Shown one piece after another: positions 5,729 through 20,297 of a stretch of DNA of 20,311 nt. The notes under the pieces are model-generated. The model was not told the DNA's origin. It saw only the letters and a program-made list of their open reading frames with translations, and ran no database searches. The first letter of the stretch is position 1. Each line of letters begins with the position of its first letter. The stretch comes from a virus: the IMG/VR virus record IMGVR_UViG_3300009370_000214, positions 1-20,311 of that record; one strand, given 5' to 3'. The translations under genes were made by a program, and so were the position numbers.

Positions 5729-6982
5729 TTATTCATACTCGATGAACGTTTCACCGGTTATCTCTTCAAGTTTACGGATCATTTTCTCCATCTTGATTCT
5801 AACAATCTTTCCTGTTTTTGTATTTCTAGAAAAGTATTGCCACTCGCCATCATCATTGTGAGGGGATAATTGAGTTTCATTACCAGACGCATCTTTTGTA
5901 TAAAGTTCACCAGATTTGGTATAAAGAAGAGAAGCATTTGTCGGAGTGTGGGTAGCAGAGCCAGTCAAATTGTTTATTTGAACTATATTCCGACTTCCAA
6001 GCACTATCGTGTCAGTAATAGCTGTAGTAGCACTTAAACCGATTGCTATAGCATTCACAGCTGTTGCTTCTGCGCTGTGACCAATTGCGACACTATCATC
6101 GGCTGTTGCTTGTGCGGCGTGTCCAACAGCAACAGCATCATCACCAGGACCAGCGTCGGAATCGTGCCCGATCGCAACACTGCTATCGCCGCTGGCGATG
6201 CCATAGTCGGCTTGATATCCGATTGCGATACTATAAGCATTAGATGTCTGCGCGTAATAACCAATCGCAGTACTATAATTACCAGTTGCTGTAGCACGTT
6301 GCGTAATTGCGACACTAGTGATGCCCAATGCCTGCGCTGTCATACCTATAGCAACAGCTTGTGCTGCTCTGGCTTTACTATCAGTGCCCAGGGAGACAGC
6401 ATAGTTACCATCACACAAAACGCTTTGACCGATGCCAATGCAGGCAGTTGCTTTAGCGTCTGGGGCATAACCAATTGCAATAGAGCCGGCATGTGTTGCT
6501 TCTGCCCAATATCCAATTGCAACAGCTTTATCTGAAGTTCCGTTTGCATTATAGCCAATTGCGACACTGTAGGCGGCTGATGAGTTTGCTTTGTATCCAA
6601 TTGCTGCGCTGTAAGATCCTGCTGCGGCTGGAGAAGCGCCGATTGCTATGCTGTCTGCTCCCGCGCCGGCTGGGTTAATAGCAGAAGAACTGATTATTCC
6701 TCCAAAAAGAGCAGAAGCAGAAATGTGTGTTAAAGACGTCAGTCTATAAATTGATGCGGATGAATATTCCAGCGTCGAGCCGCTAATTGAGGCAGTTAAA
6801 GTTGTTCCGTCGTAAGTAAGATTTGCAGAGCCGGCGAAAGAACCAGCATTATTATATTGGACTTGTGTATCGGATCCGCCAGGAGATCCTCCACCGCCGC
6901 CGCCTACGCGAGTGATCTCATCATATAGATCACCGCTATTCTTCTTTTTAGAATTGTTGAGATCTTTGTCGTAACGAGCCAT
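5729..6982 (-). CDS. YadA-head-type repeat fibre protein
   Basis: Probable trimeric fibre or virion surface protein. The N-terminus (1-30) is charged, then comes a glycine run and D-T-Q-V-Q-Y-N-N-x-G-S-F-x-G-S-x-N-L-T-Y-D-type sequence at 38-58, a segment widespread in phage tail fibres. About sixteen degenerate repeats of S-V-A-I-G-Y-x-A-type sequence, spaced roughly 14 residues apart, fill 111-331. Repeats of this kind form left-handed beta-rolls in the YadA/Hia head. A C-terminal region (338-417) has a Y-T-K-S-G-E-L-Y motif and an amphipathic helix. There is no signal peptide or outer-membrane anchor, so it is not a bacterial autotransporter adhesin. It follows the recombinase by 18 bases with no clear ribosome site, and it sits amid replication genes rather than in the tail module. 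A decoration or internal protein is an alternative. Confidence 0.8.
   Translation of the reverse strand: MARYDKDLNNSKKKNSGDLYDEITRVGGGGGGSPGGSDTQVQYNNAGSFAGSANLTYDGTTLTASISGSTLEYSSASIYRLTSLTHISASALFGGIISSSAINPAGAGADSIAIGASPAAAGSYSAAIGYKANSSAAYSVAIGYNANGTSDKAVAIGYWAEATHAGSIAIGYAPDAKATACIGIGQSVLCDGNYAVSLGTDSKARAAQAVAIGMTAQALGITSVAITQRATATGNYSTAIGYYAQTSNAYSIAIGYQADYGIASGDSSVAIGHDSDAGPGDDAVAVGHAAQATADDSVAIGHSAEATAVNAIAIGLSATTAITDTIVLGSRNIVQINNLTGSATHTPTNASLLYTKSGELYTKDASGNETQLSPHNDDGEWQYFSRNTKTGKIVRIKMEKMIRKLEEITGETFIEYE
5990..6652 (-). repeat. Tandem ~14-residue AIG-type coding repeats in the fibre gene
   Basis: About sixteen coding repeats of roughly 42 bases, visible as recurring A-I-G-Y/H (variants S-L-G, A-I-T, V-V-G, V-L-G). 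They are clear at protein level but diverged in DNA, so the array is old rather than freshly expanded. Long shadow reading frames on both strands arise from this bias. Confidence 0.8.
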
Positions 6983-9360: not shown

Positions 9361-10176
9361 TTACTCTTGAGTAAAATTCGTGTGTGCCAACAAATAAACA
9401 TAGTTCTCTTCATACGAAGTAGAAGTGATACTATAAGATACAGTAGTAAAATCTTCTTGTCCTGCATTCATTATCTGGTTGCTGATTTTGTTTAGTAGAT
9501 TTTTCTCTTCACTTAATGTTTTTTGACTGAAGGTATAGAAGAAGTTCTTCTCTCTAATGTTCTGTAAATCATAGAAATATTTCTCTTCACCCTCCGACGA
9601 ATCGTAGTAACCAAGAGTTGAGATCCTATTAACTTCTGCTGGCTCTGAAACATTTGACATAACAGAAGATGCGTTGTCCAGATAGTTCAGCATATGAAAG
9701 GTCGAGGCAATAGTTTTGTTGATAACCTCGAAGTATTCAACAATCGAAAGGTCACCCAAAATGTTTGAAATTGCGTCATTTCCAAGCAAAAACAACCGTT
9801 TTATAGCCCCAGACCGAGCGTATTCTTGTAAAACCTTATAAACCAAGTTTTCCCTCAGTTTGGCTCTAGGATTGAGGAAGTTCTTATCGGGACGAATGTA
9901 AGCAACACTAGTGTTTGCGTCCGTTAGAGAGCCTAATAGAGCCATTAGAGAGCCACTTACTATTCCTCCCCCCACAAGAAACACACAAGTTGGTCCTTTT
10001 ACCTTCTTTGTAAGTTCTGGGAAAGATTGGAAGTTCTTTTCTGCTTCTTCCATTGTTTTGCTTTTGGGCAGATTATATTCTTCATCGACATCAACACAGA
10101 AAATCTTGTACTGTGAGTACTGCTCAAACTGTTTGGCAATCTTACAGCCGCCTTGTCCTAATCCAATAATGTTCAT
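9361..10176 (-). CDS. Divergent tubulin/FtsZ-like protein
   Basis: Probable GTP-binding cytoskeletal-type protein of the tubulin/FtsZ/TubZ superfamily. The N-terminal strand and loop M-N-I-I-G-L-G-Q-G-G-C-K-I-A (1-14) resembles the tubulin/TubZ first nucleotide loop (G-Q-x-G). F-L-V-G-G-G-I-V-S-G-S at 66-76 stands where the family has G-G-G-T-G-(S/T)-G, but with an altered, longer loop. G-N-D-A-I-S-N at about 132-138 could be the start of the central helix. The 271 residues are shorter than FtsZ, so the C-terminal domain is reduced. I cannot identify the catalytic T7-loop acidic residues confidently. Its start overlaps the polymerase stop (ATGA), so the two are co-translated. Alternatives are a Rossmann-type nucleotide-binding protein or an inactive tubulin relative. 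Phage tubulins (PhuZ, TubZ) position DNA or replication centres, which would fit the location. Confidence 0.62.
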   Translation of the reverse strand: MNIIGLGQGGCKIAKQFEQYSQYKIFCVDVDEEYNLPKSKTMEEAEKNFQSFPELTKKVKGPTCVFLVGGGIVSGSLMALLGSLTDANTSVAYIRPDKNFLNPRAKLRENLVYKVLQEYARSGAIKRLFLLGNDAISNILGDLSIVEYFEVINKTIASTFHMLNYLDNASSVMSNVSEPAEVNRISTLGYYDSSEGEEKYFYDLQNIREKNFFYTFSQKTLSEEKNLLNKISNQIMNAGQEDFTTVSYSITSTSYEENYVYLLAHTNFTQE

Positions 10177-11345
10177 ACTTTCCTCATTTTACCATAACTC
10201 TTGCCCAAAGATAAGTTGGTTTTGAATTTGCCGATTGGTGTTTCTTCAAAAACCTTTATCAGTTCTGGGATTATCTCTTTATCTTCCTTCGCCAAATCAA
10301 TAACCAAACTGTCGTGAACCGAGAAAGCAATAAATGACTTCTTTTCCTTCAGCATCTCGTGAACTTTGACCATTTGTCTCAAAAACATCTCTGCTGTTGT
10401 GCTTTGGATAATGTAGTTGAGTGCGTGATGTCGATCCGAAGGGATCACTTTGTTAAAGATTGTCTTTACTTCTTTGCCGTCCCAGTATTTCTCTAATACT
10501 TTGTCTCTTTCATAAGCTCGATTGGATAAGTAGTCCTTTGACGCTGGATTATAAAGCCAAGCGAAGATCCTTTCTTTTGCTTCTTGTCTGGTTACCATTC
10601 CACGATAAACATTTTTAATATTCCATTCGTGAATGTCTTCTTTCGGCTGTTCCTTTTCAGACAGTGCCAAAAGCGTTCTCAATTCAGCAGCGTTATAATC
10701 TATTTCCATAAAGAGATCATTGTTGGGCAGAATAGCAGCACGGTGTTCTTTTTTCATCGTTAGAATAGGAAAACTTCCCGGCTCTGTTGTCAACCTGCCT
10801 GTTTTCGTGCCGTAAATGTTGTATTTCACCTTCTTGTCGAGAGTTTTTAGTTTTCTTACGAAGGTTCTTGTCTGTTGGTTGACCATCTGTTCTGATAAAG
10901 CGTGTAAGTCCAACCGAATGTTGTGTTTTTTGATGTCTTCCACCACTTTTGCGAGAGATAAAAGATAATCATAGTCCTCTGGCTTTTCATAAGTGTCAAG
11001 AACATGCTGTGTAATCTCATTCTTGAGTTCACAGTATTCCATTAAGAAATGCTCTGGAACCAAGTCATAAAAGCAGTGCTCTGTCAGGTCTATTTTGGCT
11101 GTGATAAAGGATTTTAAGTGAGCCTTCAGTTTCTGGCTGACCTTCTCCCATTTATGCTTGATACGTTCTGGACAAACTTCGTCCAACTCTTTATTACAAT
11201 AGAACTTGGCGTATTCTACATCCAAAGGCAAGTTCGCTGAATAACCCCAAGTGGCTGTTAGACCTTCTGGTGGTTCATTTAGGATTTGGTTGTTGAGATA
11301 GACGCCTTTACATTCAATTTTGTTGTCTAAAATCTGGAAGATCAC
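10173..11345 (-). CDS. Small family A DNA polymerase lacking exonuclease domains
   Basis: Replicative or repair DNA polymerase reduced to the polymerase domain (390 residues). Motifs run in family A order. G-T-K-T-G-R-L at 179-185 comes first. Motif A is D216-Y-N-A-A-E221-L-R (usually D-Y-S-Q-I-E-L-R). D-I-H follows at 237-239. Motif B is R253-x3-K257-x3-F261-x3-Y265, with F261 at the position of E. coli F762 and N266 replacing the usual glycine. Q-S-T-T-A is near 314, and motif C is V-H344-D345-S346, where the family normally has H-D-E. The N-terminal 150 residues show no 3'-5' exonuclease motifs. The start is GTG with only a weak ribosome site, 8 bases after the previous gene, downstream of a promoter at 11401-11373. 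It is unlike T4, whose polymerase is family B. The separate FEN nuclease at 4706-5656 may supply the missing 5' activity. Confidence 0.87.
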   Translation of the reverse strand: MIFQILDNKIECKGVYLNNQILNEPPEGLTATWGYSANLPLDVEYAKFYCNKELDEVCPERIKHKWEKVSQKLKAHLKSFITAKIDLTEHCFYDLVPEHFLMEYCELKNEITQHVLDTYEKPEDYDYLLSLAKVVEDIKKHNIRLDLHALSEQMVNQQTRTFVRKLKTLDKKVKYNIYGTKTGRLTTEPGSFPILTMKKEHRAAILPNNDLFMEIDYNAAELRTLLALSEKEQPKEDIHEWNIKNVYRGMVTRQEAKERIFAWLYNPASKDYLSNRAYERDKVLEKYWDGKEVKTIFNKVIPSDRHHALNYIIQSTTAEMFLRQMVKVHEMLKEKKSFIAFSVHDSLVIDLAKEDKEIIPELIKVFEETPIGKFKTNLSLGKSYGKMRKV

Positions 11346-16888: not shown

Positions 16889-18190
16889 TTATCCCCCGAC
16901 CTTCGTCATCGCTGTTGCCAACTTTGCTTGACTAGCCACGAGCTTATCGTTGTGTGCCTCTGCTCTTTTCATCAAGGTAGCTACAACATCAGACATCTCC
17001 TTGTGAAATTTCGTAGTTCTGAGGCCGGTTGCAGACTTCTCTGCTAGTTCATCTAACTTGGTAGCAACAAGTTGATAGATTTTACTAACTTCGGTAGTAG
17101 TTACTGCTTTAAATGCTGCAACAAATTCTGGAGCTGTGACACCAACTGCCTTGGCTGCTGTTCTCGTTAGGGCTTTATAAACGGCATCTTCTAGCGCGTC
17201 TGCTTGTTCCACCATGGTGGTTGCTCTTCTTGCTGCGGCGAATTCTCTACCAGCAGAAATTCCTGTTACCCTGCCTGCTAAAAGATCTCCCTCACCCATC
17301 ACCTGTCCAGGTTTATATTGCATCAGTTTTCTCATTTGTACCGAATCAATACCCAAAGAGTCTCGAAGCGATCTCATATATAAACGTTGTGCCCTAGGGT
17401 TAGATCTCCTGATGCGTGGCATAACTCGTTGAATTGCTGATGCTATGTAGTTCATCCTTTCGGGATAGTCTAGTGCTGATGCCTTTACAGAGTCGAAACT
17501 CCCCCCTAGTGCTGTCAAGGTAGCGTTCAGTTTTGCTCCCACTTTTTGTCCACCATCAATAGTCTCGAACTTATCCATAATACCCATAAGACTACCCATT
17601 GTCATTCCCATAGATCTTGCTCGACCTTGGAAGGTGAGCATCTGCTTGGTCATCTCTCCCTGATCTAAAATGTCAAAAAAGTCTTTTGCGCTGCCGTGGA
17701 GTTCCTTAAAAACTCTATTGGCGTCTTGTCCGGTTCTGGCGGCAAAATCGTGAAGAACACGACCGGTCTTTATAACCTGATTGGTAGATGAACCCAAAGC
17801 TGTTTGAAATAAATCTACAAATTCAGTAGTAGTTTCTGTTTGAACTCCCAACTGTTCCCAGATCTTTGTCTGCTGAACCAAGGCACCGGAAGAATCATCA
17901 AAGCCCTTCTTAACACGAGACGATAAATCCTTCGATAACTTATTATAAATCTCATTAGCCTCGCGGGCAGTCATGCCAATTTCTTTATTGGCTTCTGCCA
18001 AAGCCATTAGTCTTTCGTTGGCTTCGTTGGCGAGTTTGGGATTCTGTGCTAGAAGGGAATTGCTCTTACTTAACGCTTGATTAAAACGATCAATCTCGTT
18101 TACCTGTCCCTGGATCGATCGTGCTGCTTCTTTTGCTTTCTTTGCAGCTGCTGCTGCTGCCAGTTCGGCGGCGGTTGGTTTCTTAGCCAT
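16889..18190 (-). CDS. Tail tape measure protein
   Basis: Sets tail length and occupies the tube before DNA ejection. The 433 residues are almost entirely helical. They have an alanine/lysine-rich start (A-A-A-A-A-K-K-A-K-E-A-A), long stretches without proline, and T-A-L-G-G-S-F-D-S-V-K-A-S near 223-235, typical of tape measure cores. No hydrophobic transmembrane block is obvious. At about 1.5 angstroms per residue the length predicts a tail tube of roughly 65 nm, shorter than T4 (gp29, 590 residues). It lies directly downstream of the gp26/gp51 overlap, the usual position of tail assembly chaperones. Its ribosome site GGAAG is in the 3' arm of an 11-bp hairpin. Confidence 0.85.
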   Translation of the reverse strand: MAKKPTAAELAAAAAAKKAKEAARSIQGQVNEIDRFNQALSKSNSLLAQNPKLANEANERLMALAEANKEIGMTAREANEIYNKLSKDLSSRVKKGFDDSSGALVQQTKIWEQLGVQTETTTEFVDLFQTALGSSTNQVIKTGRVLHDFAARTGQDANRVFKELHGSAKDFFDILDQGEMTKQMLTFQGRARSMGMTMGSLMGIMDKFETIDGGQKVGAKLNATLTALGGSFDSVKASALDYPERMNYIASAIQRVMPRIRRSNPRAQRLYMRSLRDSLGIDSVQMRKLMQYKPGQVMGEGDLLAGRVTGISAGREFAAARRATTMVEQADALEDAVYKALTRTAAKAVGVTAPEFVAAFKAVTTTEVSKIYQLVATKLDELAEKSATGLRTTKFHKEMSDVVATLMKRAEAHNDKLVASQAKLATAMTKVGG

Positions 18191-18236: not shown

Positions 18237-18485
18237 TTATTCTGCTGTCTCGCTAAGTTCTTTATAATAATCTATCGTTTTCTTAATAAACCAATTTCTA
18301 AGCTTAATCGGAAGACAATAAAGCTCTGAGAAACCCCAATTGCCCTTCAACTTCATCATTAAAATTGTATTATAGATCTCGTCGATATACTCACTCGTCA
18401 GGCCAAAAAAACGTGCCCAAGATGGGCACTCCTCCTTCGCAAACCTTATCACACTCTTCGCAGGTGAGTGTGTAGGTGAAATCAA
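18237..18485 (-). CDS. gp51-position frame, probable frameshift extension of the gp26-like gene
   Basis: This frame overlaps the gp26-like gene by 95 bases and continues to the tape measure. As a free-standing gene it would have to start at TTG (18485) or GTG (18452), neither with a convincing ribosome site, and ATG codons come only far downstream. Read as a +1 (or -2) frameshift product at the T7 run 18411-18405, the gp26-like protein loses its last four residues (W-P-D-E) and gains 55. These include G-L-T-S-E-Y-I-D-E-I-Y and an aromatic, helical end (W-F-I-K-K-T-I-D-Y-Y-K-E-L). The new product would be about 322 residues. In T4 gene 51 follows gene 26 here. Tail assembly chaperones of many phages are made by frameshifting just before the tape measure. 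Real coding is likely, but the mode of translation is inferred. Confidence 0.6.
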   Translation of the reverse strand: MISPTHSPAKSVIRFAKEECPSWARFFGLTSEYIDEIYNTILMMKLKGNWGFSELYCLPIKLRNWFIKKTIDYYKELSETAE

Positions 18486-19206
18486 TATCTGGCGTGATTT
18501 CGTTATGAACTTTCTTAATGTACCTTGAGTCAGCGATTGGTAAAGTAGAGATGAAATTACCAGCTGCGATTAAATCATCATTTCCGTTAATTGAAATAAT
18601 CATCTGTCTCAATCTATCAGTTGCTGGGGATTCTGGCAAGTGGTGTCTTGCTTTCTGTTCTGCTTTTTTGCTGATCTCTTTTTCATCTTCTGAGGTTAGG
18701 AGTTTTATTTCTGTGACTGCTTGTGTCTTGGGCAGGGTTATTATAAACGTCCCCTTCTCGGTAAACTCTATTGTATCAACATTAGCTTCTCTTGGTTTTA
18801 CTGTTGATAAATCAACTGCTATCTCGTTCGAATGATAACAACCGTCACATTCAACATTTATTTTATATTCTTCACCATAAGCATTCATTCTCGCATTAAT
18901 AATGATAGCGTTCTTATCGCCCAACAACATCTTGCTTGCTTTAATTCTTTTGTCCACTAATAGACTATCTATCAATTTATCGAAAACAATTCCCTTTTTA
19001 TTATAGGCTGGAGAAGTTAGTATGTCTTCTTCTTTTGTTGTCATAAAAGAGATCTCCACATCTTCCTGATTATGGAGTGGGTGTTCTTCTGGATAAAACT
19101 TTCCTTTTGAAGGTAGTTTTACAAAATCAGTTGGTAGTGAATAGCCTGCTTGTTGTGTTGGGGGTTGTTCGGGAAATTGAATTTTTTTCAAATTGTCATT
19201 TCTCAT
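18391..19206 (-). CDS. T4 gp26-like baseplate/tail assembly protein
   Basis: Member of what I take to be the T4 gp26 baseplate family, 271 residues (T4 208). Visible hallmarks are V-K-L-P-S-K-G-K-F-Y-P at 29-39, I-S-F-M-T-T-K-E-E-D-I-L at 52-63, and F-D-K-L-I-D-S-L at 75-82. Two cysteine knuckles, C120-D-G-C123 and C249-E-E-C252 with C256, suggest zinc ribbons. The C-terminus is G-T-F-F-W-P-D-E. In T4, gp26 is counted as a hub protein but was not located in mature baseplate structures, so an assembly role is plausible. It starts 9 bases after the second tube gene with a GAGG ribosome site. The codons for F266-F267-W are TTT TTT TGG, forming the slippery run discussed for the overlapping frame. 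Confidence 0.78.
   Translation of the reverse strand: MRNDNLKKIQFPEQPPTQQAGYSLPTDFVKLPSKGKFYPEEHPLHNQEDVEISFMTTKEEDILTSPAYNKKGIVFDKLIDSLLVDKRIKASKMLLGDKNAIIINARMNAYGEEYKINVECDGCYHSNEIAVDLSTVKPREANVDTIEFTEKGTFIITLPKTQAVTEIKLLTSEDEKEISKKAEQKARHHLPESPATDRLRQMIISINGNDDLIAAGNFISTLPIADSRYIKKVHNEITPDIDFTYTLTCEECDKVCEGGVPILGTFFWPDE
18405..18429 (-). terminator. Intrinsic-terminator-like hairpin plus T7 inside the gp26-like coding end
   Basis: On the minus strand GTGCCCA (18429-18423), loop TCT, TGGGCAC (18419-18413), one G, then TTTTTTT (18411-18405). A perfect 7-bp GC-rich stem followed by seven T's is a textbook intrinsic terminator shape, yet it lies within coding sequence 12 bases before a stop codon. 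An AAGGAGGAG stretch lies just upstream of and overlapping the stem. The same bases could instead be a frameshift site, or both. Confidence 0.55.
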
Positions 19207-19215
19207 TAATACCTC

Positions 19216-19734
19216 TTATCTTGGTTTATAATCTAGTTCTGCCCAGTCGTATGATAAAGAAACATTGATATCAGTTAAAGCATCTGAATCATAAGTCAAA
19301 TCACTAAACTTAACAGCTGTAATGAATGCTCCGTGTAGTTTCCATTCTTCATAAATTTCACCTTCTGGATCTAACATCTGGATAGTGACGTTTCCTAGAG
19401 ACTCCATTAAAACAGATTTACTTAAATCTTTTAAGAGATTTGTATCAATATCGTTAGGATAGTCGTATGCTCCCCTTGTTAGCTTATCCATTAAAGTTTT
19501 TCCAACAGAGCTTGGAGTCTCCCTAGAAAACACCTCTCTGATAGTAAAGTTAATAGGATTCCATTTAATTTCTGCTGGATGATTGAAGTAATAATTTAAT
19601 AGTTTATAATCTTGTGTGCTTATTGTGTACTCTGGACGAGCTACATTTGTAATATAAGCCGCGTATAAATCATCTATCTTCAGATAAAATCTAAATGCTT
19701 GTTGTAGATCTGTTTGAAAGTTTCGTAGTTCCAT
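19216..19734 (-). CDS. Tail tube protein, gp19-like (second paralogue)
   Basis: Inner tail tube or tube-initiator-type protein, 172 residues (T4 gp19 has 163). Beta-rich, with the hallmark ending W-K-L-H-G-A-F-I-T-A-V-K-F-S-D-L-T-Y-D-S-D-A-L followed by I-N-V-S-L-S-Y-D-W-A (about 131-166), and an earlier P-A-E-I-K-W-N-P-I-N-F-T-I segment near 53-65. These regions line up with the preceding gene, so the two are tandem paralogues. The ATG lies 14 bases after the previous stop with no visible ribosome site, suggesting coupling. One copy may form the tube and the other cap or initiate it, or both may assemble in different tube zones. Confidence 0.82.
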   Translation of the reverse strand: MELRNFQTDLQQAFRFYLKIDDLYAAYITNVARPEYTISTQDYKLLNYYFNHPAEIKWNPINFTIREVFSRETPSSVGKTLMDKLTRGAYDYPNDIDTNLLKDLSKSVLMESLGNVTIQMLDPEGEIYEEWKLHGAFITAVKFSDLTYDSDALTDINVSLSYDWAELDYKPR

Positions 19735-19748
19735 TACAATAGTAATTA

Positions 19749-20297
19749 CTACTCAGCAGAAAAAGTTTCAAGGTTAGCGTAGTCATAAGACAAAGTTACA
19801 GAAATTGACATCAGTTCTTCGCTATCATATCCAACATCATCGTAATTAATGCTTTTAACCCAAGCATTATGCAGGGTCCACTTTTCAACATCTCTGCCGC
19901 TCGAATCAATGGTCTTAATAGCTACATCACCTTTGGTTGCATTAATAGAGTTAAGCTTTGACATACTCAACTTCCATCCTTGGTTTTCAGAAGTCCATGA
20001 AGACGGCACAGCATAACCGGCATCTTCAATAATCTTAAAAAGGACCGGCGCGACGTCGGGATCAATAGGATCTACCAAAGTAATATCGATATCATTCCAC
20101 GAAACTCTACCAGGAAATTTAAATTCATGAGCTAGAAAGTTATGTTTTGCGCCATCAGAGACAGTAACAGTTGGACGTGCAGCTGTTTTTACTACCCACG
20201 CTGGGATGTCCCCGAAAGTCAAAAGAAACTTAAACTTTCTTTTCGGCTCAATATTTGGCGATTGCCATTGTGGTAGGGGTGTTGCTTTTTTACCCAT
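19749..20297 (-). CDS. Tail tube protein, gp19-like (first paralogue)
   Basis: Tail tube protein of 182 residues, beta-rich, with H-E-F-K-F-P-G-R-V-S-W-N-D-I-D-I-T-L at about 57-74. The C-terminal pattern W-T-L-H-N-A-W-V-K-S-I-N-Y-D-D-V-G-Y-D-S-E-E-L followed by I-S-V-T-L-S-Y-D-Y-A (about 140-176) is typical of gp19-type tube subunits. It has a good ribosome site: AGGAG lies 9 bases before the ATG, in the last bases of the window. This copy is the better candidate for the main tube subunit because of its stronger translation signal, which is an inference. Tail sheath and portal genes would be expected upstream, beyond the window. Confidence 0.85.
   Translation of the reverse strand: MGKKATPLPQWQSPNIEPKRKFKFLLTFGDIPAWVVKTAARPTVTVSDGAKHNFLAHEFKFPGRVSWNDIDITLVDPIDPDVAPVLFKIIEDAGYAVPSSWTSENQGWKLSMSKLNSINATKGDVAIKTIDSSGRDVEKWTLHNAWVKSINYDDVGYDSEELMSISVTLSYDYANLETFSAE

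Follow-up and report, generated by a model that had tools for sequence, protein, structure and literature searches.

The tail assembly chaperone genes of phages lambda (gpG/gpGT), P2 (E/E') and Mu (gp41/42) consist of two overlapping frames located ahead of the tape measure gene, from which a short and an extended form are produced by a -1 or -2 shift. According to a 2016 review (PMC5009743), this G-T frameshifting is conserved across long-tailed phages 'except T4', and a +1 shift is very likely in the chaperone gene of the haloarchaeal myovirus HSTV-2. For the T4-like phages, Vladimirov, Gautam and Davidson (2022, Virology 566:9-15) have proposed gp26 and gp51 as the tail assembly chaperone genes, with a mechanism that does not involve frameshifting, as reported in the papers citing that work. 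In T4, the two forms come from duplicated genes on opposite strands, without a frameshift. Outside the phage tail genes, a +1 slip combined with an upstream internal Shine-Dalgarno sequence is found in prfB (release factor 2), where the slip takes place at CUU-UGA after a spacer of 3 nt.

The sequence analysed here is a 20,311-base virus fragment (the window). It contains a gene that very probably encodes a tail assembly chaperone of the gp26/gp51 family and is decoded with a programmed +1 ribosomal frameshift. The gp26-like ORF (19206..18391, minus strand, zero frame, 271 aa) matches PF12322 (T4_baseplate) with 38.3 bits, against a curated cut-off of 24.5, and phrog_150 with an E value of 5e-14; it is the candidate short form (TAC-N). 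Its 3' end reads GGC ACG TTT TTT TGG CCT GAC GAG TGA. The proposed slippery site, seven T's at 18411..18405 (minus), is read TTT TTT TGG in the zero frame, and the stop TGA (18391..18393, minus) lies four codons beyond it. In the +1 frame, no stop codon occurs between a point 158 nt ahead of the T run and the stop at 18239..18237. A slip of tRNA-Phe at UUU-U would lead the ribosome into the extension GLTSEYIDE... (18237..18404, minus; 55 residues and the stop), a gp51-C-like domain, and the predicted read-through product is a 322-aa fusion with 55 residues past FF, reading FFGLTSEY....

An earlier note on this DNA had proposed a programmed +1 (or -2) frameshift at this position, and its coordinates, its count of 55 added residues and its early stop in the -1 frame all proved correct on re-reading of the window. 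The T run alone carries no meaning, because the window holds 10 runs of seven T's on both strands, against a mean of 26 in shuffled sequences. The second frame indeed offers no good start: upstream of the overlap, TTG and GTG are the sole possible starts, and its first ATG lies 52 nt beyond the T run. The 82-aa ORF that opens with TTG (18237..18485, minus) gave nothing significant in a family search and is unlikely to be an independently initiated gene. A conserved start and ribosome site for it are absent from the 98 related loci described below, and the layout earlier named as evidence against the shift (no overlap, and a conserved start and ribosome site belonging to the second frame itself) was seen in none of them.

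Tail tube genes are the usual neighbours of tail assembly chaperones, and two gp19-like tail tube genes (19216..20297, minus; PF06841, phrog_4542) are situated upstream of the gp26-like ORF. These two genes, at 19216-19734 and 19749-20297 (minus), are adjacent and apparently duplicated. Downstream, the second frame ends just before a probable tape measure gene, as had been claimed; 46 nt separate the +1-frame stop from this gene (16889..18190, minus; 433 aa), which owes this assignment to its position and to a weak resemblance to the tape measure of Flavobacterium phage immuto. A family search with the 433-aa protein gave no match, and the similarity to immuto (BLASTP E 8e-5) is suggestive, since it comes from one pairwise comparison. 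The overlapping frames are likewise placed between tail tube and probable tape measure genes in immuto, SP-15 and LIS04; in immuto and LIS04, the tape measure is annotated downstream of the gp26-like/extension locus. This layout, with a short and an extended form, resembles those of lambda, P2 and Mu, although the shift proposed here is +1. The HSTV-2 gene shares with it a likely +1 frameshift in a chaperone gene; HSTV-2 is an archaeal virus, and the likeness noted is one of mechanism.

The earlier note had called for a comparison of the T run and of the overlapping frame in homologous loci. A first scan of IMG/VR with the window protein as query provided 49 loci. A second scan with an alignment as query gave at least 593 confirmed relatives, of which 80 were taken. 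Together with six isolate or assembled phage genomes, 126 usable junctions were obtained, which form a non-redundant set of 98 (less than 90% identity across 300 nt). The outcome was strongly positive, with the site and the open +1 frame kept in 97 of the 98 loci: the +1 frame is open across UUU-Y and stays open for no fewer than about 43 codons more, or as far as the contig reaches. The slip site is TTTTTTTGG in 85 loci and TTTCTTTGG in six, while TTTCTATTC, TTCTTTCGT, TTTTTTAGT, TTTTTTCAC, TTTTTTCGG, TTTTTTTAC and TTCTTCTGG are found in one locus each. The one feature that all 97 loci share is UUU-Y (Y = U or C), which allows perfect re-pairing of tRNA-Phe one base downstream. Codons of the type UUU-Ynn have been described as especially prone to +1 shifts in bacteria (PMC5009743).

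In the relatives, the zero-frame stop lies at most nine codons from the site, and the residues FFGL directly past the slip are near-invariant. Both Phe codons are TTT in 29/29 first-set loci with the site, compared with a TTT share of 79% for the rest of the gene, the loci being related to each other; no further run of seven T's was present in the 29 gp26 genes checked. Most loci carry seven T's, on which RNA polymerase, instead of the ribosome, could slip. The longest T run in TTTCTTTGG (6 loci), TTTCTATTC and TTCTTTCGT is three, however, and the +1 design is retained there. With the design intact in loci that lack a long T run, transcriptional slippage is rejected as extremely unlikely. The one exception among the 98 loci, L154, reads TTC TTC TGG and has its extension in the -1 frame; it may represent an indel error or a genuine switch of direction inside the +1 clade.

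Beyond the zero-frame stop, nucleotide changes are distributed 38:21:130 over positions 1:2:3 of the +1-frame codons (8 disjoint pairs, p = 2e-24), a pattern which indicates that the extension is evolving as protein-coding sequence in the +1 frame. These data also bear on the idea that the overlap is an artefact of a sequencing or assembly indel, or the remnant of a once in-frame gene. Homopolymers are error-prone, but the layout recurs in 98 distinct loci from many assemblies as well as isolate genomes, and the extension is under codon-level selection. For the family as a whole, this vanishingly improbable explanation is already refuted by the recurrent layout and the selection.

A second conserved element is present upstream of the slip site. 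In the window, it is the internal Shine-Dalgarno-like AAGGAGGA (18430..18437, minus), 18 nt ahead of the first TTT. AGGAG or GGAGG is found at most 40 nt upstream of the site in 75/98 loci, compared with 2.2% of equivalent 40-nt windows from other parts of gp26, and GGAGG itself in the upstream zone of 72/98 loci. The 76% of loci with AGGAG/GGAGG compare with 22% (maximum 31%) when synonymous codons are redrawn. In 22 loci, GGAGG begins at -24 and is read GGA GG(T), coding for Gly-Gly, whereas in 42 loci it begins at -22 and is read xTG GAG GTN, coding for x-Glu-Val; the same nucleotides are therefore kept in two coding phases that specify different peptides. In the codons of the element, Glu is GAG in 45/46 cases and the Leu/Val codon has G as its last base in 20/20, again in loci that are related. 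In the relatives, GGAGGU is mostly separated from the first UUU by 16-18 nt.

Such a strong internal Shine-Dalgarno sequence could also serve to start a separate small protein, initiated inside gp26 or by reinitiation, and the +1 frame of the window and of many relatives does contain TTG/GTG or ATG codons upstream. Of the 72 GGAGG loci, however, only 14 offer a start in this frame at a plausible distance. The upstream region of the +1 frame has no ATG in 62/98 loci and no ATG, GTG or TTG at all in 23/98, and the position of the start is conserved nowhere. In the loci without an upstream start, FFGL is conserved ahead of the first possible start. Moreover, GGAGG is retained in 13/18 loci where a stop codon interrupts the +1 frame on the way from the Shine-Dalgarno region to the slip site. 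Internal initiation is thus rejected as a general mechanism, in view of the 23 loci without an upstream start and of GGAGG being kept despite +1-frame stops, and a separately made extension is considered very unlikely. For the same reasons (a plausible start in only 14/72, GGAGG kept in 13/18 with an intervening stop), the internal Shine-Dalgarno sequence does not appear to serve an initiation role.

A frameshift on the ribosome has to be considered in its direction, since the earlier note had left a choice between +1 and -2. A -1 shift is ruled out in the clade of the window, where the -1 frame is closed. A -2 slip on the same seven U's, as in phage Mu, would enter the same frame as a +1 slip and add one extra Phe. 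Re-pairing of tRNA-Phe two bases back is possible in 89/98 loci, and it is conceivable that a distant Shine-Dalgarno hybrid pulls the ribosome backward. In two divergent relatives, the uncultured phage LR756508 (L003, TTT CTA TTC) and Streptococcus phage GXN1 (L004, TTC TTT CGT), +1 re-pairing is possible but -2 re-pairing is impossible. The site TTT CTT TGG (6 loci, five of them with an internal Shine-Dalgarno sequence) also favours +1, as the move from UUU to UUC gives perfect pairing. No locus among the 98 permits -2 but not +1. As L003 and L004 allow +1 only and the reverse is seen in no locus, +1 is preferred and the -2 slip is judged unlikely; the programmed shift proposed in the earlier note is supported in its +1 form.

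For a +1 frameshift, a role of the Shine-Dalgarno sequence as stimulator is plausible. The 2016 review gives a Shine-Dalgarno spacing of 3 nt for +1 and of 9-14 nt for -1 shifts, and states that the hybrid breaks once another 5-7 nt are translated (PMC5009743). The 16-18 nt spacer lies outside both known spacings. The window and its clade share with prfB the +1 slip and the upstream Shine-Dalgarno sequence, but differ by UUU-Y instead of CUU-UGA, by the longer spacer (18 nt in the window instead of 3 nt) and by an A site without a stop codon. It is somewhat short of an even chance that the Shine-Dalgarno sequence 16-18 nt from UUU-Y acts as a stimulator in an undescribed geometry, with the hybrid rupturing, or putting strain on the ribosome, at the moment of entry into the site, in a family that uses the three routes of +1 shift, -1 shift and duplication. 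Structure prediction on 17 aligned loci gave no conserved RNA element downstream of the site, and a search of the window for phage tRNA genes able to bias decoding found none. The apparently new elements are the +1 version and the conserved internal Shine-Dalgarno sequence (GGAGGU) 16-18 nt upstream. The probable +1 site is natural and widespread, and its Shine-Dalgarno sequence, under strong selection, lies at an unexplained distance. As far as found, the +1 clade is undescribed in the literature, in which the 2022 Virology work is represented by the papers that cite it.

T4 gp26 and gp51 both match PF12322 and phrog_150, and gp51 is made of a gp26-like body with an additional C-terminal part. 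T4 is therefore like the window locus in having a short form and a longer form with an extra C-terminal domain, although it uses two genes where the window has one gene and a proposed +1 shift. No match was obtained between the +1 extension and T4 gp51 directly, and the comparison with the phrog_634 HMM (0.84) was not significant. The link is provided by relatives in which the extension lies in the -1 frame. The profile of the +1 extensions (A1) matches that of the cyanophage-type -1 extensions (A2) at 95% (E 2e-8) and that of the jumbo-phage -1 extensions (A3) at 85%, with 0/60 column shuffles in both cases. All seven A2 extensions match phrog_634, and so does T4 gp51. Judged from these profile matches through the -1-frame extensions, the extension is probably a remote homologue of the gp51 C-terminal domain, so that gp26 would correspond to the short chaperone and gp26 plus extension, or gp51, to the long one. 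The fusion suggested in the earlier note, of a gp26-like frame with a gp51-position frame, is supported for the C-terminal part of gp51, not for the whole of gp51. Its tie between gp26/gp51 and tail assembly chaperones stands as well, but is not new, as it had been proposed in 2022 (Vladimirov et al., as cited by later papers).

An extension in the -1 frame, with U UUU UUC/U located at the gp26 end or close to it, is found in the cyanophages S-RIM8 and C48C1, in Melnitz-1, the KVP40-like phi-ST2, ZPAH1 and Delftia PhiW-14, and in many jumbo phages, among them PA5oct, PBECO4, CBB, RaK2, SCTP-2, Phosso, Atu_ph07, XacN1 and CM1. These relatives share with the +1 clade the homologous extension, FF at the gp26 end and a U-rich slip site. 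The base before UUU UUY is T at the -1 sites, compared with C, G or A in the +1 clade, so that a single base separates the two designs. The window departs from the -1 heptamer (X XXY YYZ), as a G precedes its T run and the -1 frame closes almost immediately. At the -1 sites of L068 and L070-L074 (cyanophage, KVP40-like, PhiW-14), weak Shine-Dalgarno-like stretches were observed at a shorter distance than in the +1 clade; the best 9-nt windows begin at -16 to -19, versus -24 to -26 in the +1 clade. Such a stretch near the -1 site is absent from most of the jumbo phages examined.

When a tree was built from the gp26 portion, the +1 phages clustered: the starred node contains 39 rows, of which 37 are +1, one is -1 (on a long branch) and one is L154. 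Two direction changes are seen overall, in what is a quick tree with some long branches. Sequence comparison indicates that three solutions exist in one family, namely +1 (the clade of the window), -1 (cyanophages, KVP40-like and jumbo phages) and gene duplication (T4). One homologous chaperone family, T4's own, would alternate between them for the same short and long proteins, which helps to account for T4 as the exception among long-tailed phages. For several of the -1 extensions, the annotation shows an independent small gene named 'baseplate hub assembly catalyst'. The isolate or assembled genomes with a -1 heptamer and a gp51-type extension (L062-L074, L056 and L058-L060) have it annotated as a separate small gene or omitted. 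Annotations that overlook the extension or give it such a label can be corrected in many phage genomes.

The AlphaFold2 model of the fused window protein has a mean pLDDT of 92 and a pTM of 0.86, with the extension predicted as a helical domain. Its matches in BFVD are gp26-like baseplate hub proteins, including that of SP-15. A fold search of this model against solved structures returned nothing significant; the HK97 chaperone 2ob9_B was listed below significance (E 3.7, probability 0.15, TM 0.44 by target length). A sequence search of solved structures with gp26/gp51 gave no match. No sequence homology of the gp26-like family to the lambda, P2 or Mu chaperones was found here, and to our knowledge none is known with gpG/gpGT, E/E' or gp41/42.

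In the proposed mechanism, the majority of ribosomes would terminate at the zero-frame TGA, producing the short gp26-like protein. In a minority, tRNA-Phe would move one base downstream, from UUU to the UUU (or UUC) that overlaps it, and translation would continue for around 55 more residues, which would form a C-terminal domain of the gp51 type. On the model of lambda gpG/gpGT, the tape measure protein would be covered by a coat of many short and few long copies, with the extension drawing in the tail tube subunits.

The window contains some other features. A 417-aa protein (5729-6982, minus) carries many YadA head repeats (PF05658) and is likely a fibre with repeats of the bacterial adhesin type. 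The 271-aa protein at 9361-10176 (minus) is without family matches; the N-terminal glycine pattern GLGQGGCKIA, FLVGGGIVSGS looks tubulin/FtsZ-like by eye. Close to RecA/UvsX-like and gp32-like genes, a 390-aa fragment of a DNA polymerase is encoded at 10173-11345 (minus). It belongs to family A (PF00476), whereas the T4 polymerase is of family B.
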